Below the pieces are notes generated by a model that was not told the DNA's origin, searched no databases, and saw only the letters and a program-made list of their open reading frames with translations. Source: an uncultured Rhizobiaceae group bacterium (lineage in GTDB: Bacteria > Pseudomonadota > Alphaproteobacteria > Rhizobiales > Rhizobiaceae). From it: a stretch of 64,000 bases of DNA. Location of the stretch: positions 1-64,000 of the forward strand of contig CANMVS010000007.1 in NCBI GenBank assembly GCA_947501445.1, written 5' to 3'. A program made the position numbers and the translations under genes. Below are positions 46,568-63,798 of this stretch, one piece after another (the stretch's first letter is position 1; every line of letters starts with the position of its first letter).

Positions 46568-48025
46568 ATGTTGACGCGCACAAATCGTTTTTTGAAGGAA
46601 GCCAATCTGATTGGTGCTGACTGGGTTGGTGCCGACAGTGGCGCAACCTTTGATGTTTTCAACCCGGCCAACGGGCAGCGTCTTGGCCACGTTCCCAATG
46701 CTGGCGCTGTTGAAACAAGACGCGCCATTGAGGTCGCCCATGAATGTTTTCAGGAATGGCGCAGGACAACAGCTGCCCACCGTGCCGGGCTGATGCGCAA
46801 GCTTCACGATGTCATTATGGATAATCGCCAGGTATTGGCCGAGCTTTTGACCCTTGAACAGGGCAAGCCACTGGCCGAATCCCTTGGAGAAGTGGGCAAT
46901 TCTGCGGCCTATATTTTGTGGTATGCGGAAGAGGCGCGCCGCGTCTATGGCGATACAATGCCTTCGCCCTGGGCAGACCGAAAGATGATGGTCGTCAAGG
47001 AGCCGGTCGGGGTCATTGCTGCCATAACCCCGTGGAACTTCCCTTCATCCATGTTAGCCCGTAAAATTGGCCCGGCACTGGCAACCGGATGTACGGCGGT
47101 TGTAAAACCGGCTGAGGCCACCCCTTACTCTGGTCTGGCATGGGGGCTTCTGGCGCAGGAAGCCGGTATTCCCGATGGGGTTATCAACATCGTGACCGGC
47201 GATCCTGCCCCCATAGGCAAGGAGCTGACGGGCAATCCGCTGGTGCGTAAAATCACCTTCACCGGATCTACCCGTACGGGTAAAATACTGCTGAAACAGG
47301 CTGCCGGAACGGTGAAGAAAGTGTCGATGGAGCTTGGTGGCAATGCGCCATTTATTGTGTTTGACGATGCGGATGTTGAAGCAGCTGTCAGTGGTGCGAT
47401 GTTGGCGAAATTCCGCAATTCAGGCCAGACCTGCGTATGTACAAACCGGTTTTACGCGCAATCGAAAATTTACGACAAATTTGTTGAGCGCCTTGCAGAA
47501 GAAGCAGCAAAACTGACCGTCGGTAATGGTCTCGATGATGGTACCGTTCAGGGGCCCGTCATTAATGAGATGCAGTTGGGCAAGATTGAAGAACTTGTTG
47601 CTGATGCGGAAAAAAAGGGCGGCAAGATCCTGACAGGTGGCAAGCGCCATACCCTGGGTGGCACATTTTATGAACCCACTGTGATTGCCAATGCCAAGCC
47701 ACGTATGCGCTTCAGCAAGGAGGAAATCTTTGGACCTGTGGCACCGGTTTACAGGTTCAAGGATGAGGCGGACGCCATCGCCATGGCCAATGACACGGAT
47801 TACGGTCTGGCCTGCTATTTCTACACCCAGAACCTGGGGCGTGCCTATCGGGTCATGGACGGTCTCAAATATGGGTTGGTTGGTGTGAACGAAGGCATGA
47901 TCACGGCCGTTGAAGCACCCTTTGGCGGTTTCAAGGAATCGGGCCTGGGCAAGGAGGGCGGACATCAGGGTATCGATGAATATCTTGATTCCAAATATGT
48001 CTGCATTGGCGGACTTGGACAGTGA
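46568..48025 (+). CDS. GabD-like aldehyde dehydrogenase, possible sulfolactaldehyde dehydrogenase
   Basis: A 485-residue NAD(P)-dependent aldehyde dehydrogenase. It shows AITPWNFPSSMLARKIGPAL and FTGSTRTGKIL; the general base Glu is in MELGGNAPFIV, the catalytic Cys in GQTCVCTNRF, and the closing part is FGGFKESGLG. By family it is succinate-semialdehyde dehydrogenase. In sulfoglycolytic clusters a GabD-like enzyme oxidises sulfolactaldehyde to sulfolactate, and the neighbours here suggest that role. The start at 46568 follows a GAAGGAG site; 46553 is an alternative. The stop overlaps the epimerase start. Confidence 0.85.
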   Translation: MLTRTNRFLKEANLIGADWVGADSGATFDVFNPANGQRLGHVPNAGAVETRRAIEVAHECFQEWRRTTAAHRAGLMRKLHDVIMDNRQVLAELLTLEQGKPLAESLGEVGNSAAYILWYAEEARRVYGDTMPSPWADRKMMVVKEPVGVIAAITPWNFPSSMLARKIGPALATGCTAVVKPAEATPYSGLAWGLLAQEAGIPDGVINIVTGDPAPIGKELTGNPLVRKITFTGSTRTGKILLKQAAGTVKKVSMELGGNAPFIVFDDADVEAAVSGAMLAKFRNSGQTCVCTNRFYAQSKIYDKFVERLAEEAAKLTVGNGLDDGTVQGPVINEMQLGKIEELVADAEKKGGKILTGGKRHTLGGTFYEPTVIANAKPRMRFSKEEIFGPVAPVYRFKDEADAIAMANDTDYGLACYFYTQNLGRAYRVMDGLKYGLVGVNEGMITAVEAPFGGFKESGLGKEGGHQGIDEYLDSKYVCIGGLGQ

Positions 48026-49041
48026 GTGAAATGGATATTGAAGTTTTTGGCACAACCGCCAATGGAGACAATGTTCACCGTGTCGAAATCAGCGGAGGCG
48101 GGCTGACGGCCCGCCTTATGACCTGGGGTGCCAGCCTTCAGGATCTGCGGCTTGCCGGCCACGCACCGCCGCTGGTGCTCGGGTTTCCCAAATTTGATCA
48201 TTATCCGGCCCATTCGCCCTATTTTGGTGCGACGCCGGGGCGCTACGCCAACCGCATTGCCCATGGCAGGTTTCAGCTGGATGGCACAGATTATCAGTTG
48301 GATCGCAACCAGCAGGGCAAACATCATCTGCACGGCGGGTCGCAGGGTATTGGCAAGCGGGTTTGGACCATTGCACAGCGTGGTGATGATTTCGTGCGCT
48401 TTGAAATCGATGATCGTGACGGTCACATGGGCTATCCGGGCAATTGTCGCATCGCCTGCACCTACCGGTTGAAGACCGGCGGCGTCTTATCCGTGGTGCA
48501 TGAGGCTGAGAGCGACCAGCCGACACTATGCAATATGGCCCACCACAGCTATTTCAATCTTGATGGCAGCAGTGAAATTCTTTCCCATGAACTGATGATT
48601 GCCGCCGAGCATTATCTGCCGGTTGATGGTGATCAGATACCAACCGGCATGATCGAGCCCGTGGCCGATACGGATTTCGATTTTCGCGATATGCGGGCGA
48701 TACGACAGGCCACAGATAACGCTTTTGTTGCCTATGATCACAATTTTTGTCTTTCCGAAAAACGCGTGCCAAAACGTGTTGTTGCACTGGCGCGAAGCCT
48801 GAATTCGGGTGTTGTGCTCGAAGTTTGGACCGGCGAACCGGGTTTGCAGTTTTACGGTGGATTTAAAATTTCACCGACGGTTGAAGGTCTGCAGGGGCAG
48901 ACGTATCAGGCTCATGCGGGCTTTTGTCTGGAAAGTCAGATTTGGCCGGATTCGCCCAATAACCGGGGTTTTCCGAGTGCGGTTCTGCGTCCAGGAGAAA
49001 GACTGACACAGGAAACGGATTATATTTTTTCACGTAGTTGA
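48022..49041 (+). CDS. Aldose 1-epimerase, possible sulfoquinovose mutarotase
   Basis: A 339-residue GalM-type epimerase with the GATPGRYANRIAHGRF segment, catalytic His in NMAHHSYFNL and the C-terminal Glu in CLESQIWPDSPN. It interconverts sugar anomers. The GTG start at 48022 overlaps the dehydrogenase stop (GTGA); ATG 48031 is an alternative. In E. coli the sulfoquinovose operon has its own mutarotase of this family (YihR), and the setting here suggests the same purpose. Confidence 0.88.
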   Translation: MSEMDIEVFGTTANGDNVHRVEISGGGLTARLMTWGASLQDLRLAGHAPPLVLGFPKFDHYPAHSPYFGATPGRYANRIAHGRFQLDGTDYQLDRNQQGKHHLHGGSQGIGKRVWTIAQRGDDFVRFEIDDRDGHMGYPGNCRIACTYRLKTGGVLSVVHEAESDQPTLCNMAHHSYFNLDGSSEILSHELMIAAEHYLPVDGDQIPTGMIEPVADTDFDFRDMRAIRQATDNAFVAYDHNFCLSEKRVPKRVVALARSLNSGVVLEVWTGEPGLQFYGGFKISPTVEGLQGQTYQAHAGFCLESQIWPDSPNNRGFPSAVLRPGERLTQETDYIFSRS

Positions 49042-49115
49042 AGCCGCGATTTTGGCCTGACAATTGAACCAATTCAGGACCATGACTTGACAGATACCCC
49101 TTAAATGGGCGCATA

Positions 49116-49132
49116 CTTATATATTATATAAG
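49116..49132. promoter_or_regulatory. Palindromic operator 1 (before dctQM)
   Basis: CTTATATATTATATAAG followed by ACT. It is an inverted repeat CTTATAT-ATT-ATATAAG, nearly identical to sites at 51188 and 54553. A TTGACA hexamer (49087-49092) lies 23 nt upstream, so the site overlaps or follows the -10 region, as expected for a repressor. Confidence 0.75.
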
Positions 49133-49203
49133 ACTCGATATGGGGACGCCAGTTGGGAGCATTGGTGTCTGACCCAAAGTCGGGATAACTGCGGGGGAAT
49201 GTC

Positions 49204-49791
49204 ATGGCTGTCATTTTGGCCTTCATTAGTCCACTTGCCTGGATCAACACAATTTTGTTGCGCATTGGCCGCAACATTGCGTGGGTCTGTATGGGGCTGA
49301 TGGTTCTGGTTATCGTATTGCAGGTATTTTGCCGCTACGTGTTGAACAATGCGCTGCCCTGGCCGGACGAAGGCGCGCGATTCCTGATGTTATGGATGAC
49401 CGGGCTGGTCGCGCCCAGCGCCTATCGCTGGGGTGGGTTTGTTTCCATTGATCTGATCAAGGATATGCTGCCGCTTCGATTGGGACGGCTGATGACGCTG
49501 ATCCTGCTGTTCTTTGCATTGATGGTTCTGGTTGTTGGGTTTCAGCTTGGGCTGAAGCATGTTCAATCAGGATGGCTGTTTGCTTCCAGTACCCTCAAAT
49601 TACCGCTGGAGGTCTTTGGCCTCGGGCTGGTGCGCCTGAAACTGGCGTGGATGTACATGTCGCTGCCGGTTGGCATTGCCATGATGATCCTGGTCAATAT
49701 TGAGCTTTCCCTCAAAACCATTGTTGGACTTATCGACCCGACCATAGAAGTGCCGGGCGATCACGATCAGCAAGCAATTTCGGCGGAGTAG
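49204..49791 (+). CDS. TRAP transporter small permease (DctQ)
   Basis: A 195-residue protein with four membrane helices and the DctQ pattern VFCRYVLNNALPWPDEGARFLMLWM. It forms the membrane part with the DctM protein, which follows after 5 nt. Import is driven by an ion gradient, with the substrate delivered by the DctP protein at 51241. The substrate is inferred from context to be sulfoquinovose or its glyceryl glycoside. Confidence 0.9.
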   Translation: MAVILAFISPLAWINTILLRIGRNIAWVCMGLMVLVIVLQVFCRYVLNNALPWPDEGARFLMLWMTGLVAPSAYRWGGFVSIDLIKDMLPLRLGRLMTLILLFFALMVLVVGFQLGLKHVQSGWLFASSTLKLPLEVFGLGLVRLKLAWMYMSLPVGIAMMILVNIELSLKTIVGLIDPTIEVPGDHDQQAISAE

Positions 49792-49796
49792 ATATC

Positions 49797-51086
49797 ATGC
49801 TGTTTCTTTTTCTGCCGTTGTTCCTTGTCTTCCTGATGATTGGTCTGCCGGTCTTTTTCGGCCTGCTGGGTGCACCTGGTTTATTGTTGTGGCTCAACGG
49901 GCAGGAGCGCGATATCGCGCTTTTGTACCGCAATGTCTATACAGGTATGGATTCCTTTCCACTGATGGCGATCCCGTTCTTTATGCTGGCCGGCGAATTG
50001 ATGAACCGTGGGGGGATCACACTTCGCATTGTCGAGTTCAGCCAGTCGCTGATCGGTCATCTGCGTGGCGGACTGGCACATGTCAATATTCTGTCCTCAA
50101 TGCTGTTCGCCGGACTTTCCGGGTCTGCGGTTGCTGATACGTCAGCGCTGGGGTCGATGCTTATTCCGGCGATGGAAAAGAACGGCTATACGCGAAAATT
50201 TGCGGCAGCCATTACAGCCGCCTCCTCGGTGATTGGACCGATCATTCCGCCCTCGGGCATCATGATTATTTACGCTTATGTCATGGGTGAATCGGTGGCA
50301 GCGCTGTTTCTGGCAGGCATTGTGCCCGGCATTCTGGTTGGCGTCGGCCTGATGTTGATGACGGCCTATATGGCCCGTTCAAATGACTTCCCGGTGGCAG
50401 CGCCACGGGCAACAGCGCGAGAGCGTGGTCAGGCAACGATGCGGGCCTTTTTTCCGCTGTTGACCCCGGTCATTATTCTTGGCGGAATTCTCGGCGGCAT
50501 CTTCACACCGACGGAAGCCTCTGCAGTTGCAGCCGTCTATGCCTTTATTGTGAGCATGTTTATCCTGCGGACGATGACCTGGTCCGACCTGCCAAAGGTT
50601 CTGACGAAGGCAGCGCTGACAACCTCTGTTGTGCTGCTGCTTGTGGGATCAGCCATGGCATTCAAAACAGTTGTCAGCCTCTCCCACGCACCGGAAATAC
50701 TGGCGGCCTTCATCCTCAGCCTATCGGAAAATCCGCTGGTTCTGCTGCTTCTGATCAACCTGCTGCTGTTTATCGTTGGCATGTTTTTGGATGCCGGACC
50801 GGCCATCATCATTCTGGGCCCGATCCTGGCACCCATTTTTATTCAGCTGGGTGTGCATCCGGTGCATTTTGCCATCATCATGAGTGTCAATCTGACGGTG
50901 GGACTGGCGACGCCGCCGATGGGGCTTGTGTTGTTCGTGGCATCCAGTGTGTCGGGGGTCAAAGTTGAAACCATCGCCCGGTCCATATTGCCATTTTTGG
51001 CAGTGGAAGTTTTCGTGATCTTCCTGATCACCTATATTCCGGCCATTTCCATGGCGGTGCCAACGTTCTTCGGATTTATCAAATAG
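49797..51086 (+). CDS. TRAP transporter large permease (DctM)
   Basis: A 429-residue protein with about 12 helices. It shows MAIPFFMLAGELMNRGG, the SGSAVADTSALGSMLIPAM segment, SSVIGPIIPPSGIMIIY and VNLTVGLATPPMGLVLFV, all classic DctM motifs. It is the ion-coupled transport subunit. Co-transcribed with DctQ. Confidence 0.93.
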   Translation: MLFLFLPLFLVFLMIGLPVFFGLLGAPGLLLWLNGQERDIALLYRNVYTGMDSFPLMAIPFFMLAGELMNRGGITLRIVEFSQSLIGHLRGGLAHVNILSSMLFAGLSGSAVADTSALGSMLIPAMEKNGYTRKFAAAITAASSVIGPIIPPSGIMIIYAYVMGESVAALFLAGIVPGILVGVGLMLMTAYMARSNDFPVAAPRATARERGQATMRAFFPLLTPVIILGGILGGIFTPTEASAVAAVYAFIVSMFILRTMTWSDLPKVLTKAALTTSVVLLLVGSAMAFKTVVSLSHAPEILAAFILSLSENPLVLLLLINLLLFIVGMFLDAGPAIIILGPILAPIFIQLGVHPVHFAIIMSVNLTVGLATPPMGLVLFVASSVSGVKVETIARSILPFLAVEVFVIFLITYIPAISMAVPTFFGFIK

Positions 51087-51187
51087 AGCGCAGGAGACAA
51101 TGTGCTGATCAATGATTTGATGCAAAAAATGGAACTTATCAGGCGGGTTGATCCGAACGCCTTGACAAGTGGGAATGGCTCGTCAAT

Positions 51188-51204
51188 CTTATATCTTATA
51201 TAAG
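51188..51204. promoter_or_regulatory. Palindromic operator 2 (before dctP)
   Basis: CTTATATCTTATATAAG followed by ACTTG, 36 nt before the dctP start. A TTGACA hexamer at 51162-51167 lies 20 nt upstream. The same geometry is seen at operator 1, which implies that dctP has its own promoter under the same regulator. Confidence 0.78.
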
Positions 51205-51240
51205 ACTTGCCAAGCGACTAAATTCGGGAGGAATGAAAAA

Positions 51241-52332
51241 GTGGTTAAACAAACGGCAAATATCCTGGGCGCACTGGCGCTTGGACTATCCTTGACAGCG
51301 GTGACTTCGGTCATTGGTGCGACCGTCACAACGGCTGATGCGGCTGATTACAAATTGCGCGCGACAGCCAACTCCAACGAAAATGATGAGGACTATGATG
51401 GTCTGATTGTTTTCAAGGACTATGTTGAAAAAGCCTCAAACGGTGCCATCGAAGTCGAGCTTTTCATCGGAACGCAGCTTTGTTCCAATGGTGCTGAGTG
51501 CCTTCAGGGCATCGCGGATGGCTCCATTGACATCTATATTTCAACATCAGGTGGCGCATCAGGCATTTTCCCATACGTTCAGGTGTTGGACCTGCCTTAT
51601 CTGCTGCGTGATGACCGGATTGCCGAAGAGGTCTTGAGCGAAGGCACATTTACCCGTTCAATTCGTAACCTTGCACTGGCTGATTCCGGCGACAAAATTC
51701 GCCTGATGACGGTGGGTAATACCGGTGGCTGGAGAAATTTCGCCAATACCAAACGGCGGGTGCAGACACCTGCCGATATGGAAGGCCTCAAGATTCGCAC
51801 AGTGGTTGCCGATCTGCCGCAGGAACTGGTGAAATCACTGGGTGCAGCGCCCACGCCAATCCCATGGCCGGAGCTGTTCACATCATTCCAGACCGGTGTT
51901 GTTGAAGGATCCAAAAACGGCATTACCGATATCATGGGCATGAAGTTCCCTGATGCCGGATTGAAATATGTCACACTGGACGGCCACGCCTATATGGGGG
52001 CTTTGTGGTGGATGAGCAATGACCGTTTCATGTCCATGCCAGAGGACATGCGCCGGGTCGTTGTCGACGGGTTTGCTGCTCTGCAGCAGGCAACATTTGC
52101 CTCACCAAAGCGTAAATCCATTGCTGCCTATTCCGAATTTGTATCAGAAGGTGGTGATCTTTATGTGCCTTCACCGGATGAAAAGGCGGCCTTCAAGGAA
52201 GCTGCTGCGCCGGTTTATGACTGGTTCAAAACCAATGTGGCAAACGGCGATGTCGCTTTTACCGCGCTTGCAGATGCTGCAGCTGGTGCTGAAGCCAAGA
52301 TTGATGGCGCCGCCGCCATGGATGTAAAATAG
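51241..52332 (+). CDS. TRAP transporter substrate-binding protein (DctP)
   Basis: A 363-residue periplasmic protein, GTG start at 51241 after GGGAGG, with a signal peptide ending TTADAAD. Mature motifs include VELFIGTQLCS, GIADGSIDIYI, the NTGGWRNFANTKR and KIRTVV region with the conserved Arg that normally grips a carboxylate, and VVEGSKNGITDI. It captures the ligand for DctQM. A sulfonated sugar would be an unusual TRAP ligand. It is followed by a terminator, so it is transcribed separately from dctQM. Confidence 0.9.
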   Translation: MVKQTANILGALALGLSLTAVTSVIGATVTTADAADYKLRATANSNENDEDYDGLIVFKDYVEKASNGAIEVELFIGTQLCSNGAECLQGIADGSIDIYISTSGGASGIFPYVQVLDLPYLLRDDRIAEEVLSEGTFTRSIRNLALADSGDKIRLMTVGNTGGWRNFANTKRRVQTPADMEGLKIRTVVADLPQELVKSLGAAPTPIPWPELFTSFQTGVVEGSKNGITDIMGMKFPDAGLKYVTLDGHAYMGALWWMSNDRFMSMPEDMRRVVVDGFAALQQATFASPKRKSIAAYSEFVSEGGDLYVPSPDEKAAFKEAAAPVYDWFKTNVANGDVAFTALADAAAGAEAKIDGAAAMDVK

Positions 52333-52380
52333 GCGCGGGACATTTGTCTGCGGGCTCTTGTCCGCACAAAGCAAATGGAG

Positions 52381-52411
52381 GAGGCTGCGCGCAGGTGCAG
52401 CCTCTTTTTTT
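52381..52411 (+). terminator. Intrinsic terminator of dctP
   Basis: GAGGCTGC-GCGCAGGT-GCAGCCTC followed by seven T. An 8-bp stem about 48 nt after the dctP stop. Confidence 0.9.
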
Positions 52412-52414
52412 CTG

Positions 52415-52518
52415 CCAGACCGTTTCACGTCATGTCAGAAACGGGATAACGGTGTCGGCCTTTGATTTTGTTGATGCATTCCGGGTTTGCCCATTCCGTC
52501 AAAACCTGAATTGCCCTA
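52415..52518 (-). repeat. Two-hairpin intergenic repeat, copy 6 (inverted)
   Basis: Nearly complete inverted copy immediately after the dctP terminator, from CCAGACCGTTTCACG to TTGCCCTA. Confidence 0.9.
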
Positions 52519-52567
52519 TGGACTGGATTCGGCCATATTTTTATACGATGGCCACAGTTGGTGGAGA

Positions 52568-53059
52568 TCACCGGAAGGGATACATCCACGGTTTGTAGTC
52601 ATTGATGAGGATCTGTGCGTGATCAATCTGTTCCGGCGACATTTTTTTAACAACCTCTTCAAGGCTGATCGCCGCATCGGGGTCGCCGCCAATCGCCGAA
52701 AGAACGTACCACATATAGGCCCGCACCAGATCAGGTTCGGGGATACCGCGCCCGACCTCATAGTACCAGCCAACACCCGATTGCGCGCCCGGATGTCCTT
52801 TCATGGCCGATCGCAGGTACCATTCAAATGCTCGTACATCATCACGCGGGACCCCAAGGCCCATGGCATACATGACACCGATCAGTTCTTCGGCGTCGGC
52901 GTTGCCGGATCTAGCCGCCGGAAGCAATTCCTGCATGGCGTCCTCAAAGCGGTTGGCTTCCATAAGGTCACGCGCCGTCTCAATTTCAGCAAACGCCGAT
53001 CGGCCGCTGAAAATGATCAGCAATGCCAGCGTCAGAACGGTAAAATTGCGCAACTTCAT
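52568..53059 (-). CDS. Exported Sel1-repeat (TPR-like) protein
   Basis: A 163-residue protein starting MKLRNF with signal peptide (IIFSGRSAFAE). It has about three Sel1 repeats, with AEELIGVMYAMGLGVPRDDVRAFEWYLRSAM as the clearest. Sel1 repeats mediate protein interactions; no enzyme domain is present. It is divergent from the dihaem peroxidase gene and may share a promoter region of only about 45 nt. No link to sugar metabolism is visible. Confidence 0.8.
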   Translation of the reverse strand: MKLRNFTVLTLALLIIFSGRSAFAEIETARDLMEANRFEDAMQELLPAARSGNADAEELIGVMYAMGLGVPRDDVRAFEWYLRSAMKGHPGAQSGVGWYYEVGRGIPEPDLVRAYMWYVLSAIGGDPDAAISLEEVVKKMSPEQIDHAQILINDYKPWMYPFR

Positions 53060-53103
53060 GGTTCGGATATCTCCCGCAAAAATCGAAGCGGCCGTTTCAG
53101 CCA

Positions 53104-54510
53104 ATGAGGATCAATAGTATCAACAGTTCCGGCGCTGCGAAACACCTGTTCACTACCGGTCGATTGGCCCTTATTGCCATCGGCCTCCTATTGGGGTTCG
53201 GCCCGGTTGCCGCAGCCGGCGGCGATGGCACTACAACAGCAAAGGCCAAACACCGGCCCGCGCTGTTAAGCAACAGCGACTTTATACCGTTTGATGAAAA
53301 ACGCGCAGCCCTTGGCCGTTTGCTGTTTTACGATCCGATTTTGTCGGGCAACCGCAATATCTCCTGCGGCACCTGCCATCACCATACGCTGGCCAGCGCT
53401 GATGGGCTGCCATTGGGTGTTGGGGAAGGTGGCACCGGGCTTGGGGCGAAACGCTCGACGGGCAGCGGTGCAGCACAGATAGATCGTCGTGTGCCGCGCA
53501 ATGCACCAGCCTTGTTCAATCTTGGACACCGCGATATTCGGGTTCTGTTTCATGATGGCAGGCTGAGTATCAGCGATCTTTATGGCAATGGTTTCAATTC
53601 ACCGGCCGAAGAATATCTGCCAAAGGGCCTTGCCAGTATTGTCGCGGCGCAGGCGATGTTTCCGGTGACGTCGGAAACCGAGATGGCAGGCCGCCCGGAA
53701 GAAAATGAGATAGCCGGCGCACGGAACAATCGCATCGATAAAGTATGGTCCCTATTGGCAGAGCGCGTTCGCAATATTGCGGCCTATGAACCCTTGTTTG
53801 TTGAAAGTTTTTCAGACCTCAAGCAGGCGTCAGATATCAGCTTTGTGCATATTGCCAATGCCATTTCGGATTTTGTCACCTCTGAATGGCGCTCATTTGA
53901 CAGCCCCTTTGACCGGTATCTGCGCGGTGAGGATGATGCACTGAACCCACAACAAAAGGCCGGCATGAATGTTTTTTATGGCAAGGGGCAATGTGCAAGC
54001 TGCCATGGTGGACCGCTCTTTACTGATCAGCAATTTCATGCCCTGGCGCTGCCACAGTTCGGTCCGGGACGAACGCGCACCTTTGAATTGTTGATGCGTG
54101 ACGTGGGGCGCATGGGGGCAACGGACCGGTTGGAAGATGCCTATCGTTTTCGCACGCCCTCGCTGCGCAACAGCGCTTTGACCGGCCCCTATGGACATAA
54201 TGGCGCCTATGGCGACCTGGAAGGCATTATCCGCCATCACCTCGATCCGCTTGCTGCGTTTGAGCAGTGGAGTCCGGACAAGGTCACGCTGCCAAAAGCG
54301 GCCCATCTTGAAGCGGCAGATTTTCTTGCACTGCAGGATAAGCGCGAGCGTCAACGCATCCGGCGCTTTGTTGATATTGAGCCCGTCGCCCTGAGTGATC
54401 AGGAAATTTCGGAACTGATTGCATTTTTGAATGCCCTTACCGGTGAAACAAGTCTGAAAGGCAGGCTGGGCAGGCCGCAGGTTGTTCCATCCGGATTGCC
54501 GGTGGATTGA
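53104..54510 (+). CDS. Dihaem cytochrome c peroxidase/MauG-family protein
   Basis: A 468-residue exported protein with two haem c sites, CGTCH (residues about 88-92) and CASCH (about 297-301), in the order and spacing of bacterial cytochrome c peroxidases. The N-terminal hydrophobic stretch ends AAAGG, a signal peptide. FRTPSLRNSALTGPYGHNG is the family's C-terminal block. It reduces peroxide, or oxidises a partner as MauG does. At 468 residues it is longer than the usual 320-350. It lies between the TRAP genes and the kinase operon without an obvious functional connection. Confidence 0.85.
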   Translation: MRINSINSSGAAKHLFTTGRLALIAIGLLLGFGPVAAAGGDGTTTAKAKHRPALLSNSDFIPFDEKRAALGRLLFYDPILSGNRNISCGTCHHHTLASADGLPLGVGEGGTGLGAKRSTGSGAAQIDRRVPRNAPALFNLGHRDIRVLFHDGRLSISDLYGNGFNSPAEEYLPKGLASIVAAQAMFPVTSETEMAGRPEENEIAGARNNRIDKVWSLLAERVRNIAAYEPLFVESFSDLKQASDISFVHIANAISDFVTSEWRSFDSPFDRYLRGEDDALNPQQKAGMNVFYGKGQCASCHGGPLFTDQQFHALALPQFGPGRTRTFELLMRDVGRMGATDRLEDAYRFRTPSLRNSALTGPYGHNGAYGDLEGIIRHHLDPLAAFEQWSPDKVTLPKAAHLEAADFLALQDKRERQRIRRFVDIEPVALSDQEISELIAFLNALTGETSLKGRLGRPQVVPSGLPVD

Positions 54511-54552
54511 TTGTGATGGCCATGGCAAATCGCGCCTGGATGTGATTCTGGT

Positions 54553-54569
54553 CTTGTATCTTATATAAG
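54553..54569. promoter_or_regulatory. Palindromic operator 3 (before the kinase operon)
   Basis: CTTGTATCTTATATAAG followed by ACTTG, differing from operator 2 at one base within the 17. It lies 66 nt before the kinase start. No clear TTGACA is seen at the distance found for the other two sites. Confidence 0.75.
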
Positions 54570-54635
54570 ACTTGCTAGATTGCGGCGAACAAGGATGGTC
54601 GGCATCCCTGTTGCCGGAGGCCCCATGTTGTTGTC

Positions 54636-55532
54636 ATGACAGTTGTTCTTACCGCAGGTACTGCGGTCATCGATTTTGTGTTTCAGCTGGATGCATTTCC
54701 CTCGCGCTCGGAAAAGCACCGGGCAAAGGATGCGGCCATTGTCGGCGGTGGCTGCGCGGCCAATGCGGCCGTGGCCGTCGCGCGACTGGGCGGGCAGGCA
54801 CATCTGGCCGCACGTCTTGGCGATGATATTATCGCCGATATGATCATGGCAGACCTGGTCCGCGAACAGGTTGATTGCACACTGGTCAAGCGGTTTGAGG
54901 AGCATCGCTCGTCATTCTCCTCAGTCCTGGTTGATCCGCAGGGCGAGCGCAGTATTGTCAACTTTCGTGACATGACGATTGATTTTGACGGCGCGTGGCT
55001 GGAGCAAAGCCCCATGCCCGAATTTGACGTGGCGCTTGCCGATACCCGCTGGCCCGATGGTGCGCGGGTGTTGATGGAAGCGGCCCGCAAACGCGGTGTT
55101 CCCGGCGTCATTGACGGTGAAGCACCGGCAAGAGAGGCGATGCCCGCACTCAATGCTGCCTCCCATATCGCGTTTTCGCTCCAGGGATTGCGTGATTTCG
55201 ATGACGACAGCAATTGTGATGTTGCCCTGCTGCGGGCGGCAGAACAAACCGGTGCCTGGGTTTGCGTGACGCAGGGCGAAGAAGGTGTGCGCTGGGTGGA
55301 AGACGGATCTGTCAGATATATGCCCGCCTTCAAGGTTGACGCGGTGGATACGCTGGGCGCCGGTGATGTGTGGCACGGCGCTTTTGCGCTTTGTCTGGCG
55401 CGCACGGGCAGTGAAACGTCAGCCATTCACTTTGCCAGCGCGGCCGCTGCACTCAAATGCAAACGATTTGGCGGGCGTTCGGGAACACCGGACGCCAGTG
55501 AAGTGGAAACATTCCTCAAGGAGAATTCATAA
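54636..55532 (+). CDS. PfkB-family kinase, probable 6-deoxy-6-sulfofructose kinase
   Basis: A 298-residue ribokinase-fold enzyme with VGGGCAANAAVAVARLG near the start and the catalytic DTLGAGDVWHGAF (Asp in GAGD) near residue 245. It resembles E. coli YihV throughout (DVALADTRWPDGA, AALKCKRFGGRSG). Lys27, Asn109 and Arg138 are present at the positions I recall as YihV's sulfonate pocket. It would phosphorylate sulfofructose at O1. An SD-like GGAGG is better placed for a 4-codon frame (ATG 54625) ending in an ATGA overlap with this start; TTG 54630 is also possible. Stop and aldolase start overlap (TAATG). Confidence 0.85.
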   Translation: MTVVLTAGTAVIDFVFQLDAFPSRSEKHRAKDAAIVGGGCAANAAVAVARLGGQAHLAARLGDDIIADMIMADLVREQVDCTLVKRFEEHRSSFSSVLVDPQGERSIVNFRDMTIDFDGAWLEQSPMPEFDVALADTRWPDGARVLMEAARKRGVPGVIDGEAPAREAMPALNAASHIAFSLQGLRDFDDDSNCDVALLRAAEQTGAWVCVTQGEEGVRWVEDGSVRYMPAFKVDAVDTLGAGDVWHGAFALCLARTGSETSAIHFASAAAALKCKRFGGRSGTPDASEVETFLKENS

Positions 55533-56578
55533 TGCAACTGTCACCGGGCAAATTATGGGGCATGCGGCGCATGGCCGATGCTGATGGGCGCTTCAAGATG
55601 ACAGCGGTTGATCAGCGCCCGCCCATCAAAAACCCGATAGCTGCCCACTATGGACAGGATCAGGCGCCCTATGATGATGTGGCACGCTTCAAGGCGCTGA
55701 TGACGCAGACACTACAGGGCGAATCATCGGCCATGCTGCTTGATCCACATTTTGCCATTCCACGCGGCATACAGCATCTGTCGCCGACAAAGGGTCTCAT
55801 TGTCACACTGGAAGATTCGCTCTTTGAGGAAACTGCCGGCGGCAGGCTTTCGGCGCAGATCGACGACTGGTCCGTGGCAAAGATAAAGAGGATGGGCGGT
55901 GACGCCGTCAAGGTTCTGGCCTGGTACCGGCCCGATGCTTCCAAATCTGTCAACGATCATCAAAAGGATTATGTCAAACAAATCGGCGAAGATTGCGCCC
56001 GCCATGATATTCCATTTCTGTTTGAATTGCTCGTATACCCGCTTGCCAGCGATGCACATCAAACACAGGATTATGTCGAATTGCAGGGCAAGAAGACGGA
56101 CGACGTTCTTGCGTCGGTGGAAGAATTTGCCAGGCCGGACTATGGCGTTGATGTTTTCAAGCTTGAGAGCCCGATGAACGCTGTCGATGTTCCGGGCGTT
56201 GGCAATGAAGGATGGCAGGAAGCACAGAATATATTTGACGAAATGGGCCGACTTGCCGGACGGCCATGGGTCATGCTTTCGGCAGGCGCCGGCAAGTCAG
56301 ATTTTCGCAATATTCTGACCCACGCCTATAAGGCCGGCGCTTCGGGTTATCTTGCCGGACGAGCCATTTGGCTTGATGCGTTCGCTCATTTCCCCGATTG
56401 GGATTTGATGCGCCGTGGATTGGAAACTGAGTCAGTTGACTACATGAAAGACATCAACCAGCTCACGAACAGCCAGGCAACACGCTGGAATGAGCACGAA
56501 ATCTACGGTCCGCAAGGTGCACATTTTACACCGGACAATGCTGCTTTTCGCCACGAATACGCTGACTTCAAGGGTTGA
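55532..56578 (+). CDS. LacD/YihT-like aldolase, probable sulfofructose-1-phosphate aldolase
   Basis: A 348-residue class I aldolase of the tagatose-bisphosphate/YihT family. Landmarks are FKMTAVDQRPP, LLDPHFAIPRGI, VKVLAWYRPDAS, the probable Schiff-base Lys in VDVFKLESPMNA, and WVMLSAGAGK followed by GASGYLAGRAIW, whose Arg matches the sulfonate-binding region recalled for YihT. It would split sulfofructose 1-phosphate to DHAP and sulfolactaldehyde. It is about 50 residues longer than YihT, mainly at the C-terminus. Translationally coupled to the kinase. Confidence 0.85.
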   Translation: MQLSPGKLWGMRRMADADGRFKMTAVDQRPPIKNPIAAHYGQDQAPYDDVARFKALMTQTLQGESSAMLLDPHFAIPRGIQHLSPTKGLIVTLEDSLFEETAGGRLSAQIDDWSVAKIKRMGGDAVKVLAWYRPDASKSVNDHQKDYVKQIGEDCARHDIPFLFELLVYPLASDAHQTQDYVELQGKKTDDVLASVEEFARPDYGVDVFKLESPMNAVDVPGVGNEGWQEAQNIFDEMGRLAGRPWVMLSAGAGKSDFRNILTHAYKAGASGYLAGRAIWLDAFAHFPDWDLMRRGLETESVDYMKDINQLTNSQATRWNEHEIYGPQGAHFTPDNAAFRHEYADFKG

Positions 56579-56700
56579 CGATCATGCATGAGTGGGGTTT
56601 TCAAAACGTATTCCTGATGAAACGCATGCCGGATTGCGGCGTGCGTTCGCCAAGCAGTTTACGTTTTTATCCCAACATGGCAGGTCACACATCATCGGGC

Positions 56701-57291
56701 CTAGTCCAGCAGGATGCGCCCCACTTCGCGCAATCTTGGTCCTTCCGGATCTTTCGAGCCCGAAGGCGCCATAATAATGGCTTCGCCGGGCCTTGGCAGT
56801 GTGCCGGTCAGCGCTTCCACATTTTGCGGATGCGTCATCAGAACCTGATTGCCGGGGCCGCGAAATTGCTCGATGATTTCAATCGCGCCTTCGGTTTTTG
56901 CCGCCAGCGCTTCGGGGTCATCCTCAACCAGGTCAAGCGCTTCGGATGGCACAATTTCCGTGTTGCGAAAGGCATTTTCGGCTGTCTCAATGGTGCGGCA
57001 CCATCGGCTGGAATAGATTCTGGATATGGAAACAGCGCGTGCGGCAAAGCGCGTGCCTCTGCGACTGGCCTGCTGGCGCCCGCGATCGGACAGGTTTCGT
57101 TGGGTCGTGCAGTCCTCAATGTCGAAAAATGGCGGATCGCCAACGCCTGGAGCCTGTGCGTGGGTCATCAGGATCGAATAGCCACCTGTGGCAAGGTGTG
57201 CCCAGGCGGCGTCCGTCGCTGCGGCGACGGTCAATCCAAAAGGCACCTGTATCAGACAGATTACGATCAATACGACAAGTCGTTGTATCAT
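56701..57291 (-). CDS. Exported histidine-phosphatase-like protein with altered RH motif
   Basis: A protein of about 196 residues starting MIQRLVV, with signal peptide (FGLTVAAAT). It belongs to the histidine phosphatase superfamily: CTTQRNLSDRGRQQA, SRWCRTIETAENAF and the second His in LMTHPQNVEALTG. The first motif, normally RHG/RHA, reads MTHAQAPG: the Arg is Thr (codon ACC), so activity may be reduced or altered. It lies on the opposite strand inside the sugar cluster. ATG 57312 would extend it by seven residues. Confidence 0.78.
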   Translation of the reverse strand: MIQRLVVLIVICLIQVPFGLTVAAATDAAWAHLATGGYSILMTHAQAPGVGDPPFFDIEDCTTQRNLSDRGRQQASRRGTRFAARAVSISRIYSSRWCRTIETAENAFRNTEIVPSEALDLVEDDPEALAAKTEGAIEIIEQFRGPGNQVLMTHPQNVEALTGTLPRPGEAIIMAPSGSKDPEGPRLREVGRILLD

Positions 57292-57335
57292 GCAGCGGCT
57301 CCGGTCTTTCAAGTATCTAGGAGTTAGTTCAGCTT

Positions 57336-58739
57336 ATGGGCGAGGTTAACACTATAGGGGTTCTGCCTTTAGGGCGACCAACTTTTGATGTGGAATTTGC
57401 TGAGCAAAAACTTGATGCCATGTTGAAAGGTCTGATTGCAACTGGCAAGACAATCCTTGGGTCTGAGCGCCTGCTTATGGATGCAGCAACAACCGAGGCT
57501 GCAATTGCCGATCTGAAGCAGCAGAAGCCGGATGTGATCGTTGTATTACAGGTGACATTTACGGATGCGAGCGCGGTTATCAGTGCCTGCAATGCCTTCA
57601 CGCAACCCTTGTGTATCTGGGCTGTGCCGGAGCCGAGGCTTGGTGGACGATTGCGGCTGAACGCCTTTTGCGGCCTCAATCTGGCATCCCATGCACTGGG
57701 GTTGGCGGGGCGGGTTTTTTCCTGGCTCTATGCGGACCCGCAGGCCGAGAATATCGACAGCGAGCTTGCAGCCCTGCTGGCGGGTAAAAAAACTGTGATG
57801 CCGTTGGAGGGACAGCAAAGAACCGCTGATACATCACAGGCCCAACGGGTGTTGGCGCAGGTAAAGGGATCCCGAATCGCCCGTCTCGGTGCCCATCCGG
57901 ACGGGTTTGATACCTGCAAATATGATCCCGAACGCCTGCTTGCACTGGCCGGGATCGAGGTGGATGAGCTCCCATTGGACCAGCTGTTTGATACTGCAAG
58001 GGGCGTGCCCGATGTTGCAGTGGATGCTGTTCGCGCAGAGGCAAAGCGGGATCTGCAAGGGTTGGAGGACGTTGATCCGCAGGAACTGGACAAATCATTG
58101 CGCCTGAAATCGGCAATCGAAGCCATACGGGCGAGCGGTCACTATGATGCTTTTGCCATTCGTTGCTGGCCGGAGACCTTTACCGAATACGGTGGCGCCG
58201 TGTGTGGACCGGTCGCCATGATGGGGCAATCGCGGGTGCCCTGTGCCTGTGAGGCTGATGTCTATGGTGCTGCAACCCAATTAGTGCTTCAAAGTGTGGT
58301 GGACGCGCCGGTTTTTCTCGCCGATCTGGTTGATATGGACATCGAGGACAACACGGGTGTGGTCTGGCATTGCGGTCAGGCACCGATATCCATGGCCCCC
58401 GCCGATGTCATGGCACAGGCAACCATTCACACCAATCGCAAGATGCCGCTGCTTTATCAGTTTCCGCTCAAACAGGGGCGTGTGACGCTGATGCGTATCA
58501 GCCAGGCCCATGGTGTGCACAAAATGATTATTGCCAGTGGTCGGATGCTGCAAAGGCCAATGGCTTTTACCGGCACATCAGGCGTCGTGGAATTTGACCG
58601 GCCGGTACGCGACGTCTTACCTGCTGTGATGGATAGCGGCCTTGAGCACCATATGGCGCTGGCCTATGGAGATCACACGGAACCGCTGGTCGCCATTGCC
58701 GCAGCGCTTGAGCTGCCGGTCATCCATCTTTGTCAATAA
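57336..58739 (+). CDS. L-fucose/L-arabinose isomerase-like protein, probable sulfoquinovose isomerase
   Basis: A 467-residue protein of the FucI/AraA fold. The N-terminal part has GVLPLGRPTFDV and DVIVVLQVTF, the middle part AIRCWPETFTEYGG and CACEADVYGAA, and the C-terminal part VVWHCGQAPISM. The Glu and His in these blocks are candidate metal ligands. In some sulfoglycolytic clusters of Gram-positive bacteria a member of this family (SqvD) isomerises sulfoquinovose to sulfofructose in place of YihS. The kinase and aldolase nearby support that role; another aldose substrate cannot be excluded. No operator copy is seen directly before it. Confidence 0.75.
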   Translation: MGEVNTIGVLPLGRPTFDVEFAEQKLDAMLKGLIATGKTILGSERLLMDAATTEAAIADLKQQKPDVIVVLQVTFTDASAVISACNAFTQPLCIWAVPEPRLGGRLRLNAFCGLNLASHALGLAGRVFSWLYADPQAENIDSELAALLAGKKTVMPLEGQQRTADTSQAQRVLAQVKGSRIARLGAHPDGFDTCKYDPERLLALAGIEVDELPLDQLFDTARGVPDVAVDAVRAEAKRDLQGLEDVDPQELDKSLRLKSAIEAIRASGHYDAFAIRCWPETFTEYGGAVCGPVAMMGQSRVPCACEADVYGAATQLVLQSVVDAPVFLADLVDMDIEDNTGVVWHCGQAPISMAPADVMAQATIHTNRKMPLLYQFPLKQGRVTLMRISQAHGVHKMIIASGRMLQRPMAFTGTSGVVEFDRPVRDVLPAVMDSGLEHHMALAYGDHTEPLVAIAAALELPVIHLCQ

Positions 58740-58766
58740 TCTACATTCGAAAACAGGCTCCAATCC

Positions 58767-59864
58767 ATGAAAAACATTCGCTACGGCATCATCGGTTCGG
58801 GAATGATGGGTCAGGAGCATATTCGCAATATATCGTTGCTGGAGGGGACGCAGGTTACTGCGATTGCTGACCCGAATGAGGCCATGCGCTCACAGGCTGC
58901 AGCTCTGGCCGGGCCTGATTGCGCCGCCTTTGATCATCACGATGAGCTGATTGCCTCTGGCCGGTGTGACGCGCTGGTTATTGCAGCACCCAATCACCTT
59001 CATCATCAGATTTTGATGGATGTCCTGCCTGTCAATCTGCCGCTGCTTGTTGAAAAACCGCTCGGCATTGATGGTGCGCAATGTGCAGATATCATCAGGG
59101 TTGCGCAGACCCGGGAAGCGCCGGTCTGGGTGGCGATGGAATATCGCTACATGCCACCCATCGAGCGCATGCTCAGCGAGTTGCGCCTTGGAACCATTGG
59201 AAGTCCGCGGATGATTGCCATTCGCGAACATCGTTTCCCGTTTTTGGACAAAGTGGGCCATTGGAACCGTTTTCAGGATCAGACGGGCGGCACACTGGTG
59301 GAAAAATGCTGTCACTTTTTTGACCTGATGCGATTGGTCATGGGCAGTGAAGCAAAACGGGTCTATGCGTCCGGCGGCATGGATGTCAATTTCCGCGGCG
59401 AGGCATTCGAGGGGCGACCGGCAGATATCCTCGACAATGCCTTTGTCATTGTCGATTTTGAAAATGGTACCCGGGGCATGCTTGATCTTTGCATGTTTGC
59501 CGAAGGGTCCTACTGGCAGGAAAAAGTCAGCGTGACCGGTGACAAGGCGCGCGTTGAAGCGCTGGTTCCCGGCCCTGCCAGATTCGCGCCGGACGGCATG
59601 GAGCGCGCCTCCCGGCTGGTTGTCTCAAGACGGGCCGACCGATGCGAAACGCTGGAGGATGTTCACGTCGATGAAACCATATTGGCGGCCGGAGACCACC
59701 ATGGATCGACCTTCTTTCAACATCAGAAGTTCCTGCGCCTGCTGCGTGATGGCGGTCAGCCGGAAGTCAGCATGATTGATGGTGCCAGATCGGTGGAAAT
59801 TGGTGCAGCGGCGGAATATTCGGCCCGCAAAGGCGTGGCCGTGGATTTGCCTTCAGGCGTTTGA
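58767..59864 (+). CDS. Gfo/Idh/MocA-family protein, possible NAD-dependent sulfoquinovosidase
   Basis: A 365-residue protein with N-terminal Rossmann domain (YGIIGSGMMGQEHI) and the conserved LLVEKPLGID, followed by the larger beta-sheet domain with GGTLVEKCCHFFDLMR. It is either a sugar dehydrogenase or an oxidoreductive glycosidase. NAD-dependent sulfoquinovosidases (SqgA, GH188) belong to this superfamily and occur with isomerase/kinase/aldolase clusters, which makes that the leading guess. It follows the isomerase by 27 nt. Confidence 0.7.
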   Translation: MKNIRYGIIGSGMMGQEHIRNISLLEGTQVTAIADPNEAMRSQAAALAGPDCAAFDHHDELIASGRCDALVIAAPNHLHHQILMDVLPVNLPLLVEKPLGIDGAQCADIIRVAQTREAPVWVAMEYRYMPPIERMLSELRLGTIGSPRMIAIREHRFPFLDKVGHWNRFQDQTGGTLVEKCCHFFDLMRLVMGSEAKRVYASGGMDVNFRGEAFEGRPADILDNAFVIVDFENGTRGMLDLCMFAEGSYWQEKVSVTGDKARVEALVPGPARFAPDGMERASRLVVSRRADRCETLEDVHVDETILAAGDHHGSTFFQHQKFLRLLRDGGQPEVSMIDGARSVEIGAAAEYSARKGVAVDLPSGV

Positions 59865-59918: not shown

Positions 59919-60281
59919 TCACGATTTTGAGATCGCCCGCCCGCGCCAGATACTGATGAACAGCAGGGCGAAAATGACCACATCAAATGCGAAAAAGGTC
60001 CTCATCAGCCAGTCTGTGGCCGGCGATGCGGTAAGCAGAACAAAGGTGCCGGTGCCGCCAATCAGGACGATCAGCAGCGCCAGATAGCGAATTTTGGTGA
60101 GCCGCATATAGAGCAGTGCGCCCAATGCCGTGTAGACAAGGCCGAACAGGACGAGCATATCGCCACCGGCGCTGAACCCACGCCACAGCCCGCCAACGCA
60201 ATGCAGCAGACCGGTTGCGATCAACAGCGTTGCGGCCAGTTTCAGCCCTGCGGGGAACGCATCAACGGGTTTGCTCATCAT
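59919..60281 (-). CDS. Small four-helix membrane protein
   Basis: A 120-residue protein with four hydrophobic segments (residues about 12-31, 35-56, 62-80 and 88-110) and no recognised motif. It starts at 60281 (MM), overlapping the stop of the cytochrome gene by one base (TAATG), and is the last gene of the molybdenum-hydroxylase operon. A membrane partner or quinone-linked role is possible but not shown. Confidence 0.65.
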   Translation of the reverse strand: MMSKPVDAFPAGLKLAATLLIATGLLHCVGGLWRGFSAGGDMLVLFGLVYTALGALLYMRLTKIRYLALLIVLIGGTGTFVLLTASPATDWLMRTFFAFDVVIFALLFISIWRGRAISKS

Positions 60282-60919
60282 TACTCCTCCGGCGGGCATG
60301 GGGTTCCGGCTGCTGACCATTTCATCAGCGCGTCAATGGCCAGTGCCAATGAGTGCGGGGCCGGTTCCCGGTTGCCTCCAGGGTTCCAGGCCCAATTGAG
60401 GACAAGGTCGTGGTCCACATGGCTGGCAACCTCACCTATGGTGCGATTGCCATTGCGTTGCGGATCCTTGAGCTGATTGCAAACGTAGTTTGAGGACTTG
60501 CCAAACCATTCGGCCTCAACCGGTGCAAGGCCCCAGATCGATGCAACCCGTGGCGCGGAATGCGGTGTTCGATTGGCGTTTTCATCGGGTTCGCTCAACG
60601 TCGTATGGCAGGTGGAACATATCAGCGCTTCGGCACCAATCCTGCTTTCATCGGCATTGATATTCATGCCGTGCGGCCGCGTCTTGCCGTAGCTTGGACC
60701 AGACCACATGGGCACATTGCTTGGTCCCACATGACAATTGGAGCATCGCGGGTGGGATGCCACCTCATAAAAGGTCTGCCAATTGGCAAGCCCTTCCTCG
60801 AGCGTCACCGATCCGGGCGGATATTCGCGAACAGGTGCGGCGCTGTCATCACCGGCAGCCGGCAAAACAAGACCGGTCAGCAGCGCCAGGGCGCCTGCGG
60901 TTACTCGTGTTTTTTTCAT
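60281..60919 (-). CDS. Periplasmic dihaem cytochrome c
   Basis: A 212-residue protein with signal peptide (LLTGLVLPAAGDD) and two haem c sites, CSNCH and CSTCH, about 50 residues apart. The C-terminal part has PHSLALAIDALMKW. It lies 10 nt after the molybdopterin subunit and probably accepts its electrons. An upstream ATG at 61063 lies within the preceding gene and is not favoured. Confidence 0.82.
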   Translation of the reverse strand: MKKTRVTAGALALLTGLVLPAAGDDSAAPVREYPPGSVTLEEGLANWQTFYEVASHPRCSNCHVGPSNVPMWSGPSYGKTRPHGMNINADESRIGAEALICSTCHTTLSEPDENANRTPHSAPRVASIWGLAPVEAEWFGKSSNYVCNQLKDPQRNGNRTIGEVASHVDHDLVLNWAWNPGGNREPAPHSLALAIDALMKWSAAGTPCPPEE

Positions 60920-60929
60920 CTGCGCACCC

Positions 60930-63170: not shown

Positions 63171-63171
63171 A

Positions 63172-63630: not shown

Positions 63631-63639
63631 GGGTACTCT

Positions 63640-63695
63640 CCAGATCAAATGGGCCAGATCAAATGGGCCAGATAAAATAGGCCAGATCAAACGGG
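63640..63695 (-). repeat. Four 14-nt tandem repeats in the leader of the hydroxylase operon
   Basis: Units on the plus strand: CCAGATCAAATGGG twice, then CCAGATAAAATAGG and CCAGATCAAACGGG. They end 9 nt before the start codon of the 2Fe-2S subunit gene, so they occupy its untranslated leader, including the ribosome-binding region. Confidence 0.88.
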
Positions 63696-63798
63696 TTGAA
63701 GTCATCATGCCTGTGCGGATTGTGCCAATTTTAACCGTCCGCAATACATGTTAGCGTCAACGTCACGCGAATGACGGGACGTGTTTCTCGAGAGAATA

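Follow-up and report, generated by a model that had tools for sequence, protein, structure and literature searches.

A candidate regulon for sulfoquinovose catabolism, with a hybrid sulfo-EMP gene set and a TRAP importer, in a Rhizobiaceae bacterium

The window analysed here is the whole 64,000-nucleotide stretch C7:1-64000 of contig CANMVS010000007.1, from an uncultured Rhizobiaceae bacterium whose genome comprises 6.82 Mb in 110 contigs. Between positions 46568 and 59864, it carries a group of genes resembling an Embden–Meyerhof–Parnas (EMP)-type pathway for the sulfosugar sulfoquinovose (SQ), together with a tripartite ATP-independent periplasmic (TRAP) importer. Protein families were assigned with Pfam and NCBIfam profiles, and the nearest structures by sequence matching to the PDB. 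The genes and operator-like motifs are as follows.

46568..48025, + strand: aldehyde dehydrogenase (ALDH), candidate sulfolactaldehyde dehydrogenase; open reading frame (ORF) opening at 46460; PF00171, TIGR01780
48022..49041, + strand: GalM-like aldose 1-epimerase, presumed SQ mutarotase; PF01263, 266 bits; NF008277, 263.7 bits, cut-off 240
49116..49135, + strand: operator-like motif CTTATATATTATATAAGACT, 68 nt upstream of dctQ
49204..49791, + strand: TRAP small permease DctQ; PF04290, 75 bits
49797..51086, + strand: TRAP large permease DctM; PF06808, 399 bits; TIGR00786, 439 bits
51188..51207, + strand: operator-like motif CTTATATCTTATATAAGACT, upstream of dctP
51241..52332, + strand: TRAP substrate-binding protein DctP, proposed receptor for SQ or its glycosides; start moved to GTG 51241 (listed 51169); PF03480, 172.5 bits
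52568..53104, - strand: Sel1-repeat protein with an apparent signal peptide (by eye); PF08238, 57 bits
53104..54510, + strand: MauG/CcP-like di-heme protein; PF03150, 117 bits; CXXCH at residues 88 and 297
54553..54572, + strand: operator-like motif CTTGTATCTTATATAAGACT, upstream of the kinase gene
54636..55532, + strand: putative PfkB-family sulfofructose kinase, YihV type; PF00294, best PDB match 7ag6
55532..56578, + strand: class I aldolase, proposed sulfofructose-1-phosphate aldolase; PF01791, LacD/PRK12858 branch
56701..57312, - strand: histidine phosphatase (branch 1), between aldolase and isomerase; PF00300, 29.5 bits; apparent signal peptide by eye
57336..58739, + strand: AraA/FucI-fold isomerase of the SftI/SqvD kind, proposed SQ isomerase; NF048012, AlphaFold2 (AF2) fold
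58767..59864, + strand: predicted GH188 NAD+-dependent sulfoquinovosidase, SqgA type (Gfo/Idh/MocA), from PDB matches and conserved residues

An earlier sequence-only reading of this stretch had proposed a complete sulfo-EMP enzyme set with a TRAP importer. Every gene that it named is an intact ORF, and the Pfam and NCBIfam families agree; the Sel1-like, MauG-like di-heme and histidine phosphatase genes lie inside the same stretch and were absent from that reading. The DctP start was placed at GTG 51241 rather than 51169 because most relatives align from about this point, a Shine-Dalgarno-like sequence precedes it, and a motif lies upstream. Scans for sigma-70-like promoters (14 against 10.0 in shuffles, sd 3.1) and terminator-like structures (20 against 16.1, sd 4.3) both fell within about 1-2 sd of the shuffled sequence.

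Two samples of related loci were used for comparison. The first was anchored on the isomerase and comprised the 20 best-scoring neighbourhoods from the same family besides the window's own, searched by tblastn in stretches of up to 20 kb, some contigs being shorter. The second was anchored on DctP and comprised the best 80 titled loci of at least 536 confirmed relatives, some of them metagenome-assembled genomes or near-duplicates, with gene content read up to ~10 kb on each side. Around the isomerase, 18 of 20 neighbourhoods had the kinase, 17 the aldolase (one partial), 15 a GH188 of at least 56% identity, and 9 the TRAP genes. Because these genes recur around the isomerase, their grouping is more than chance. 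The same gene order, ALDH excepted, was found in Hoeflea poritis, Nitratireductor sp. XY-223 and Hoeflea halophila, and the whole set lies within one stretch in Maritalea porphyrae. In one further genome (G077, loci L011/L022), the isomerase orthologue carries one in-frame TGA, and most of the cluster is kept.

The clearest enzyme assignment is that of the Gfo/Idh/MocA protein, which the sequence-only reading had taken for the glycosidase. Its nearest structures were 8qc2 (380 bits), 8qc3 (376 bits) and 8zn9 (371 bits), the next match reaching 82 bits. 8QC2 and 8QC3 are structures of the GH188 enzyme SqgA, in which Arg166, Leu170 and Lys172 are reported as sulfonate residues, and Lys107, Tyr136, Glu189, His193 and His321 as active-site residues (PMC10755693). 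With a constant offset of 10, the equivalents here are R156, L160 and K162 for the sulfonate, and K97, Y126, E179, H183 and H311 for the active site. All were unchanged in 63 of 63 rows, namely the window and the 62 of the 80 titled loci that carry GH188. By sequence and conserved residues, the protein is a GH188 member and a predicted sulfoquinovosidase. In two loci where no GH188 was found (L087, 15273-17390, and L063, 11882-13942), a GH31 enzyme adjoins the isomerase, as expected of the classical sulfoquinovosidase family.

The YihV-like kinase of the sequence-only reading also stood: the 228 bits to its best PDB match, the sulfofructose kinase 7ag6, exceed the second-best score of 155 by a wide margin. 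Residues K27, R138 and D244 were invariant in 13 aligned rows and N109 was kept in 8 of the 13; we take K27, N109 and R138 to be the sulfosugar-binding residues. GalM, the presumed mutarotase, occurs in 11 of the 80 titled DctP loci.

For the isomerase, described as FucI-like in the sequence-only reading, the sole NCBIfam match was the SQ isomerase model SftI (NF048012), at 280 bits and E 4e-83, and no PDB sequence match was found at E 0.001. A Foldseek search with the AF2 model (pLDDT 91.9) returned L-arabinose isomerase (E 2e-21, TM 0.57) and FucI (E 2e-15, TM 0.53). The overall rmsd of ~23 Å in the fold comparison indicates that the domains do not superpose as a single body. As modelled, the isomerase has the AraA/FucI fold. 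A relative of this isomerase (37%) was seen on the Zymomonas mobilis plasmid pZZM402 (L148), with a class II aldolase, GalM, a GH188-like protein (45%), major facilitator superfamily and TonB genes and a succinate-semialdehyde dehydrogenase (SSADH); that cluster looks like another hybrid sulfo-EMP set.

The aldolase was only partly as the sequence-only reading had it. It shares Pfam family PF01791 with YihT, but falls in the LacD/PRK12858 branch, its likeness to YihT being only distant: its best PDB match was 8tnf (325 bits), followed by LacD-type enzymes (142 bits) and sulfofructosephosphate aldolase/YihT (66-72 bits). K210, the proposed Schiff-base lysine, was invariant in 18 rows. The protein also passed the NCBIfam subfamily model named tagatose 1,6-diphosphate aldolase (352 bits, cut-off 184). 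The sequence-only reading had said that a grouping with tagatose enzymes would refute its proposal, and by this name the aldolase does so in part; because of the gene context, the tagatose label is weak evidence.

The least secure enzyme assignment is the putative sulfolactaldehyde dehydrogenase, GabD-like in the sequence-only reading. The ALDH is intact, and its R165, R283 and C289 match Arg171, Arg289 and Cys295 of RlGabD at a constant offset of 6 from a common WNF motif. SSADH has these residues too, and the protein passed the SSADH model TIGR01780, though barely (650.9 bits, cut-off 646.35). Because of this, its role in the pathway would rest on its pairing with GalM, which was found in the window, in locus L020 and in the Maritalea locus L136.

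Genes for the further use of sulfolactate lie 2-6 kb beyond the window end. They encode a SuyB-like protein (C7:66530-67678, 93% identical to a relative's copy), preceded by a SuyA-like ORF of 103 aa (66%), a SlcC-like protein (C7:67769-68689, 73%) and a ComC-like protein (C7:68732-69724, 68%), and a GntR-type regulator adjoins. Pfam placed the relatives' copies in GD_AH (SuyB), 2-Hacid_dh (SlcC), Ldh_2 (ComC) and GntR/UTRA; for the relative's SuyA copy, Pfam gave nothing and NCBIfam only a weak match to galactarate dehydratase. NCBIfam matched ComC to L-sulfolactate dehydrogenase at 186 bits (cut-off 500), and SuyB only to galactarate dehydratase, far under the cut-off. Since the Pfam matches are at family level and the NCBIfam matches below cut-off, the Suy, Slc and Com names rest on family and context. 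SuyB was found in 6 of the 20 isomerase neighbourhoods, and SlcC in 13 plus one weak match. Because SuyAB-, SlcC- and ComC-like genes are linked to the cluster, sulfolactate is probably cleaved in the same cell. TauE-type sulfite exporters did not single out a candidate, with nine matches over the cut-off in this genome and the family present in 14 of 14 control genomes.

Other genes in this neighbourhood were set apart from the pathway. At window positions 60281-63744 (- strand), between GH188 and the suy genes, lie MoCoBD and [2Fe-2S] oxidoreductase subunits and a protein with two CXXCH motifs (by eye, no Pfam match). This insertion is absent in the close relatives read, and its genes were dropped as pathway members on finding GntR directly after GH188 in Hoeflea poritis and Nitratireductor. 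Past an unrelated ORF after the intact ComC-like gene, there is also a ComC-like fragment (L054 12768-13073, near 71.8 kb on G000:C7), 54% identical over 29% of the length.

A shared motif ties these genes together. Exact copies of the 20-bp sequence CTTRTATMTTATATAAGACT number only four in the assembly: three stand ahead of dctQ, dctP and the kinase gene, and the fourth separates gntR from suyA. Another contig has a single match with two mismatches, and the reversed control gave none; in 100 shuffles of the window, the motif was not found at up to three mismatches. We also scanned 40 EMP-type loci, 22 same-family and 18 titled, two of which (L016 and L076) are the same contig. These gave 47 matches (44 without three overlapping pairs), all near gene starts: the kinase 18, suyA 15, dctP 8 and dctQ 6. 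A site within two mismatches was present in 13 of 15 loci with this GntR, compared with 0 of 7 with only DeoR. In 50 loci of the SQ monooxygenase (SMO) type, none was found within three mismatches. The four-site motif suggests that the importer, sulfoglycolysis and sulfolyase genes form one regulon, and the GntR encoded beside suyA is probably its controller, predicted to bind the shared 20-bp operator.

The importer was examined through its receptor. DctP, DctQ and DctM of one TRAP system are all present (PF03480, PF04290 and PF06808). The window DctP is 73-88% identical to those of the 80 titled loci, the closest being Hoeflea poritis (88%), followed by Rhizobiaceae, Alphaproteobacteria and Nitratireductor records, which suggests that the source is a Hoeflea-like alphaproteobacterium. 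Its anion clamp, R189, R210 and N250 (numbered from 51169; Arg152, Arg173 and Asn213 of 4P47 by alignment), was invariant in 15 rows. Such a clamp of two Arg and one Asn, which binds carboxylates or, in the receptor IseP, a sulfonate, fits an SQ cargo, but is no proof of cargo. Cys105 and Cys111 (same numbering) were likewise invariant in 15 aligned rows and are possibly a disulfide or redox pair. An AlphaFold model of DctP built on 15 close relatives was set aside for its pLDDT of 51.

Gene content around DctP was more informative. GH188 was found in 62 of the 80 loci, Sel1 in 72, a MauG-like protein in 67, SmoC in 49 and the isomerase in 17. SQ-type genes stood beside DctP in 69 of the 80: SmoC/SmoB in 50, isomerase, aldolase or kinase in 18, and GH188 alone in 1. 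Pfam on the SMO reference locus identified a flavin reductase, an aldo/keto reductase and a luciferase-like monooxygenase, and an annotated Ruegeria sp. TM1040 record has the same SMO-type gene order. A quick DctP tree of 81 rows required at least five changes between EMP and SMO, the starred branches alone forcing 2 to 3. SmoC itself was found in 60 of 149 genomes of one family; when every third of that ranked list of 60 was examined, this DctP was present in 13 of 20 loci and Sel1 in 10 of 20. TRAP coupling to SQ-type genes is common, though not universal. The expectation of the sequence-only reading that such coupling would be unusual did not hold, with TRAP in 9 of 20 isomerase-anchored and 13 of 20 SmoC-anchored loci. 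In the window's own genome, a sulfo-SMO pathway was rejected, the SmoC match reaching only 20 bits.

The SMO route is described as giving glucose and sulfite and no C3 sulfonate (PMC12890257). Because one importer set stands beside two unrelated routes, and the SMO type would give no C3 sulfonate, the simplest cargo of this predicted TRAP system that would fit both routes is SQ or its glycoside. A competing reading of the cargo is that the importer carries a C3 sulfonate, 2,3-dihydroxypropane-1-sulfonate (DHPS) or sulfolactate, for SuyAB. One motif precedes dctQ, dctP and suyA alike, and the receptor that its authors present as the first TRAP receptor specific for sulfonates to be characterised in function and structure takes a short sulfonate, isethionate (PMC11668362). 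Against a C3 cargo, SuyB was found in 0 of 50 SMO-type titled stretches, and all 7 loci with SuyB are of the EMP type. We consider a C3 cargo improbable.

The enzymes raise a separate question, namely whether the substrate is sulfofucose, the C4 epimer of SQ, used via sulfotagatose and sulfotagatose-1-phosphate, or whether both sulfohexoses are used. The AraA/FucI fold of the isomerase and the LacD branch of the aldolase speak for sulfofucose. A Shinella cluster that includes a sugar kinase, SSADH, a short-chain dehydrogenase/reductase (SDR) and an enolase-superfamily enzyme also has a 50%-identical aldolase, and PF00294 and PF01791 homologues are reported from the sulfofucose cluster of Paracoccus wurundjeri, though not induced (PMC12421959). 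GH188 is also found in such a setting: on plasmid pYA7-1a of Arthrobacter sp. YA7-1 (L172), a GH188-like protein (50%) accompanies galactonate dehydratase, dihydrodipicolinate synthase-family, SMP-30 and SDR genes. That cluster resembles a sulfofucose Entner–Doudoroff (ED) pathway, and GH188 may act on sulfofucosides. The kinase, however, is closest to sulfofructose kinase, and many of the 80 titled loci combine the same importer set with GH188 and genes of the SMO type. Ten proteins of the window were scanned and none belongs to the SfcF families; no search for an SfcF was made elsewhere in the genome. Use of sulfofucose, alone or alongside SQ, appears unlikely here. That the cluster serves an ordinary sugar (tagatose, fucose or a related hexose) with merely sulfosugar-like enzymes is very improbable: the aldolase's tagatose label and two TRAP-Sel1-MauG loci (L151 and L152) with no SQ-type genes in their stretches lean that way, but the GH188 sulfonate pocket is intact and the sulfolactate-type genes are preceded by the same motif.

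For SQ, we propose the following route. The TRAP system (DctP receptor, DctQM permease) would import SQ or sulfoquinovosylglycerol. GH188 would split SQ glycosides using NAD+, and GalM would equilibrate the SQ anomers. The AraA/FucI-fold isomerase would convert SQ to sulfofructose (SF), the YihV-type kinase would produce SF-1-phosphate, and the class I aldolase would cleave this to dihydroxyacetone phosphate and sulfolactaldehyde. An ALDH, probably the window's, would oxidize sulfolactaldehyde to sulfolactate; the SlcC/ComC-like enzymes would invert sulfolactate and the SuyAB-like proteins would cleave it to pyruvate and sulfite. GntR would govern importer, sulfoglycolysis and sulfolyase via the shared operator. 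The locus is very probably the window part of one regulon for the complete aerobic use of SQ and its glycosides.

An EMP-type sulfosugar pathway is strongly supported by the predicted enzymes. The kinase, GH188, isomerase and linked sulfolactate-type genes uphold the sulfo-EMP type of the sequence-only reading, but likeness to the sulfo-EMP2 variant is confined to the isomerase. Because its kinase (PF00294) and aldolase (PF01791) belong to other families than SqiK and SqiA, the cluster is, by these assignments, a hybrid sulfo-EMP and not sulfo-EMP2.

Several observations weigh against this proposal. Among the enzymes, the isomerase score lies far beneath the equivalog cut-off of 700, and the aldolase is closer to LacD than to YihT. 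The function of its nearest structure was not found, 8TNF being unmentioned in the literature searched. The ALDH is inseparable by sequence from SSADH and occurs in only 1 of 20 isomerase neighbourhoods and 1 of 80 titled loci; no 20-bp motif lies upstream of it, leaving the ALDH-GalM pair without a site. GH188 also lies inside the sulfofucose-ED-like Arthrobacter cluster. As for regulation, the motif is present in 6 of the 18 loci whose stretches show neither GntR nor DeoR, and absent from 2 of the 15 with GntR. As for the importer, 11 of the 80 DctP loci had no SQ-type gene; 7 of these are on stretches shorter than 12 kb, and L093, L106, L108 and L110 are longer. The SMO label reflects Pfam matches of one locus and homology to that locus, not a characterised SmoC sequence. 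In a sampled congener (G085), the pathway is present but the stretch contains no TRAP of this kind, the best DctP being 36% identical. Finally, L151 (G351) and L152 (G178) carry TRAP, Sel1 and MauG genes without SQ-type genes in their stretches, so the module may serve more than SQ. Both loci also have a PhyH-type dioxygenase and an AraC regulator, and L151 has YdjC-like, weakly glucosamine-isomerase-like and GH116 proteins; perhaps they represent a further sugar pathway for this importer.

The proposed pathway leaves the Sel1, MauG-like and histidine phosphatase proteins unexplained. MauG-like matches at E 1e-90 or better occurred in 21 of 297 genomes of the order (own included), at 23 places, of which 20 were examined, the window's own and two others being left out. 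Six of the 20 are neighbours of Sel1 and DctP, with identities of 54-61%, and the other 14, at 44-55%, are not. Identity did not separate the two groups, since one linked protein is at 54% and one unlinked at 55%. A histidine phosphatase relative was found in 8 of the 20 isomerase neighbourhoods and in the Hoeflea and Nitratireductor loci. A tentative idea, which we hold as possible but doubtful, is that TRAP, Sel1 and the MauG-like protein make up one module dedicated to capturing and processing sulfoquinovosyl glycosides in the periplasm, perhaps extending to the head groups of thylakoid glycolipids in general, and that this module is passed between different catabolic pathways. The di-heme protein might then oxidize, in the periplasm, the substrate or a module protein such as DctP (Cys105/Cys111).

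Parts of this arrangement have precedents. The Yih sulfo-EMP pathway of E. coli and that of Arthrobacter AK01 share with the window a YihV-type SF kinase, a class I aldolase of superfamily PF01791 and, if the ALDH here has that role, a sulfolactaldehyde dehydrogenase, and Arthrobacter also has GH188 (PMC8873060, PMC10755693). Unlike those systems, the window cluster has no YihS-type isomerase (the rest of the genome was not searched) and has a LacD-branch aldolase; in place of the permeases of E. coli and the ABC transporter of Arthrobacter, there is TRAP, with linked sulfolyase-type genes. Sulfo-EMP2 of Bacillus urumqiensis and Megamonas has an SqvD/SftI-kind isomerase, which the proposed isomerase of the window resembles, but uses SqiK (PF00365), class II SqiA (PF01116) and mostly SqvB, compared with PF00294, PF01791 and GalM here (PMC9594981). 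Hybrid sulfo-EMP/EMP2 clusters, with mixed isozymes as here, have been published for Proteobacteria, Actinobacteria, Firmicutes and Vibrio (PMC10599462, PMC12890257, PMC13372026). The Vibrio hybrid has an SqiA aldolase and DHPS as product, whereas the window has the LacD-branch aldolase, TRAP and SuyAB-like genes.

Akin to the present cluster, an actinobacterial GH188 Y160 cluster includes a fucose isomerase, SF kinase, SFP aldolase, SLA dehydrogenase, PGDH and sulfolactate sulfo-lyase (PMC11465081). That variant has an ABC transporter and a Tyr at the place of Leu170, while the window protein retains a Leu at that place (Leu160) and the transporter is TRAP. Published precedents exist for hybrid sulfo-EMP clusters, for GH188 itself and, in Actinobacteria, for its occurrence next to fucose isomerase and sulfolyase genes. 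Paracoccus wurundjeri combines sulfohexose breakdown with SlcC, ComC and SuyAB in one cell, as proposed here, but does so with an ED route, an ABC transporter and sulfofucose, in contrast to EMP and probably SQ (PMC12421959). The isethionate TRAP receptor IseP takes a sulfonate through a clamp of two Arg and one Asn, which is kept here (PMC11668362); its cargo is C2, whereas a C6 sulfosugar is proposed for the window DctP.

About 10 billion tons of SQ are made each year (PMC10755693), and the import of this sugar has been called poorly characterized (PMC8873060). TRAP transporters take mainly carboxylates (PMC4646407), and the breakdown and biomineralization of a sulfosugar in one bacterium has been called unusual (PMC12421959). 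If the idea of a periplasmic module is true, a sulfosugar would be imported by a TRAP system, and SQ uptake would involve a heme enzyme. No report of either was found among the papers listed in the literature searches, and TRAP goes unmentioned in three SQ papers checked for it; an earlier mention of a TRAP importer for SQ is possible. A receptor of this kind for SQ would widen TRAP chemistry from carboxylates and isethionate to a C6 sulfosugar. The four-site motif suggests that sulfoglycolysis and sulfolactate lysis are jointly controlled in one genome, and the recurrent Sel1 and di-heme partners may signal unknown periplasmic chemistry. Occurring across SMO-type and EMP-type clusters, the DctP gene would offer a marker, open to testing, by which SQ uptake could be traced in ocean metagenomes.

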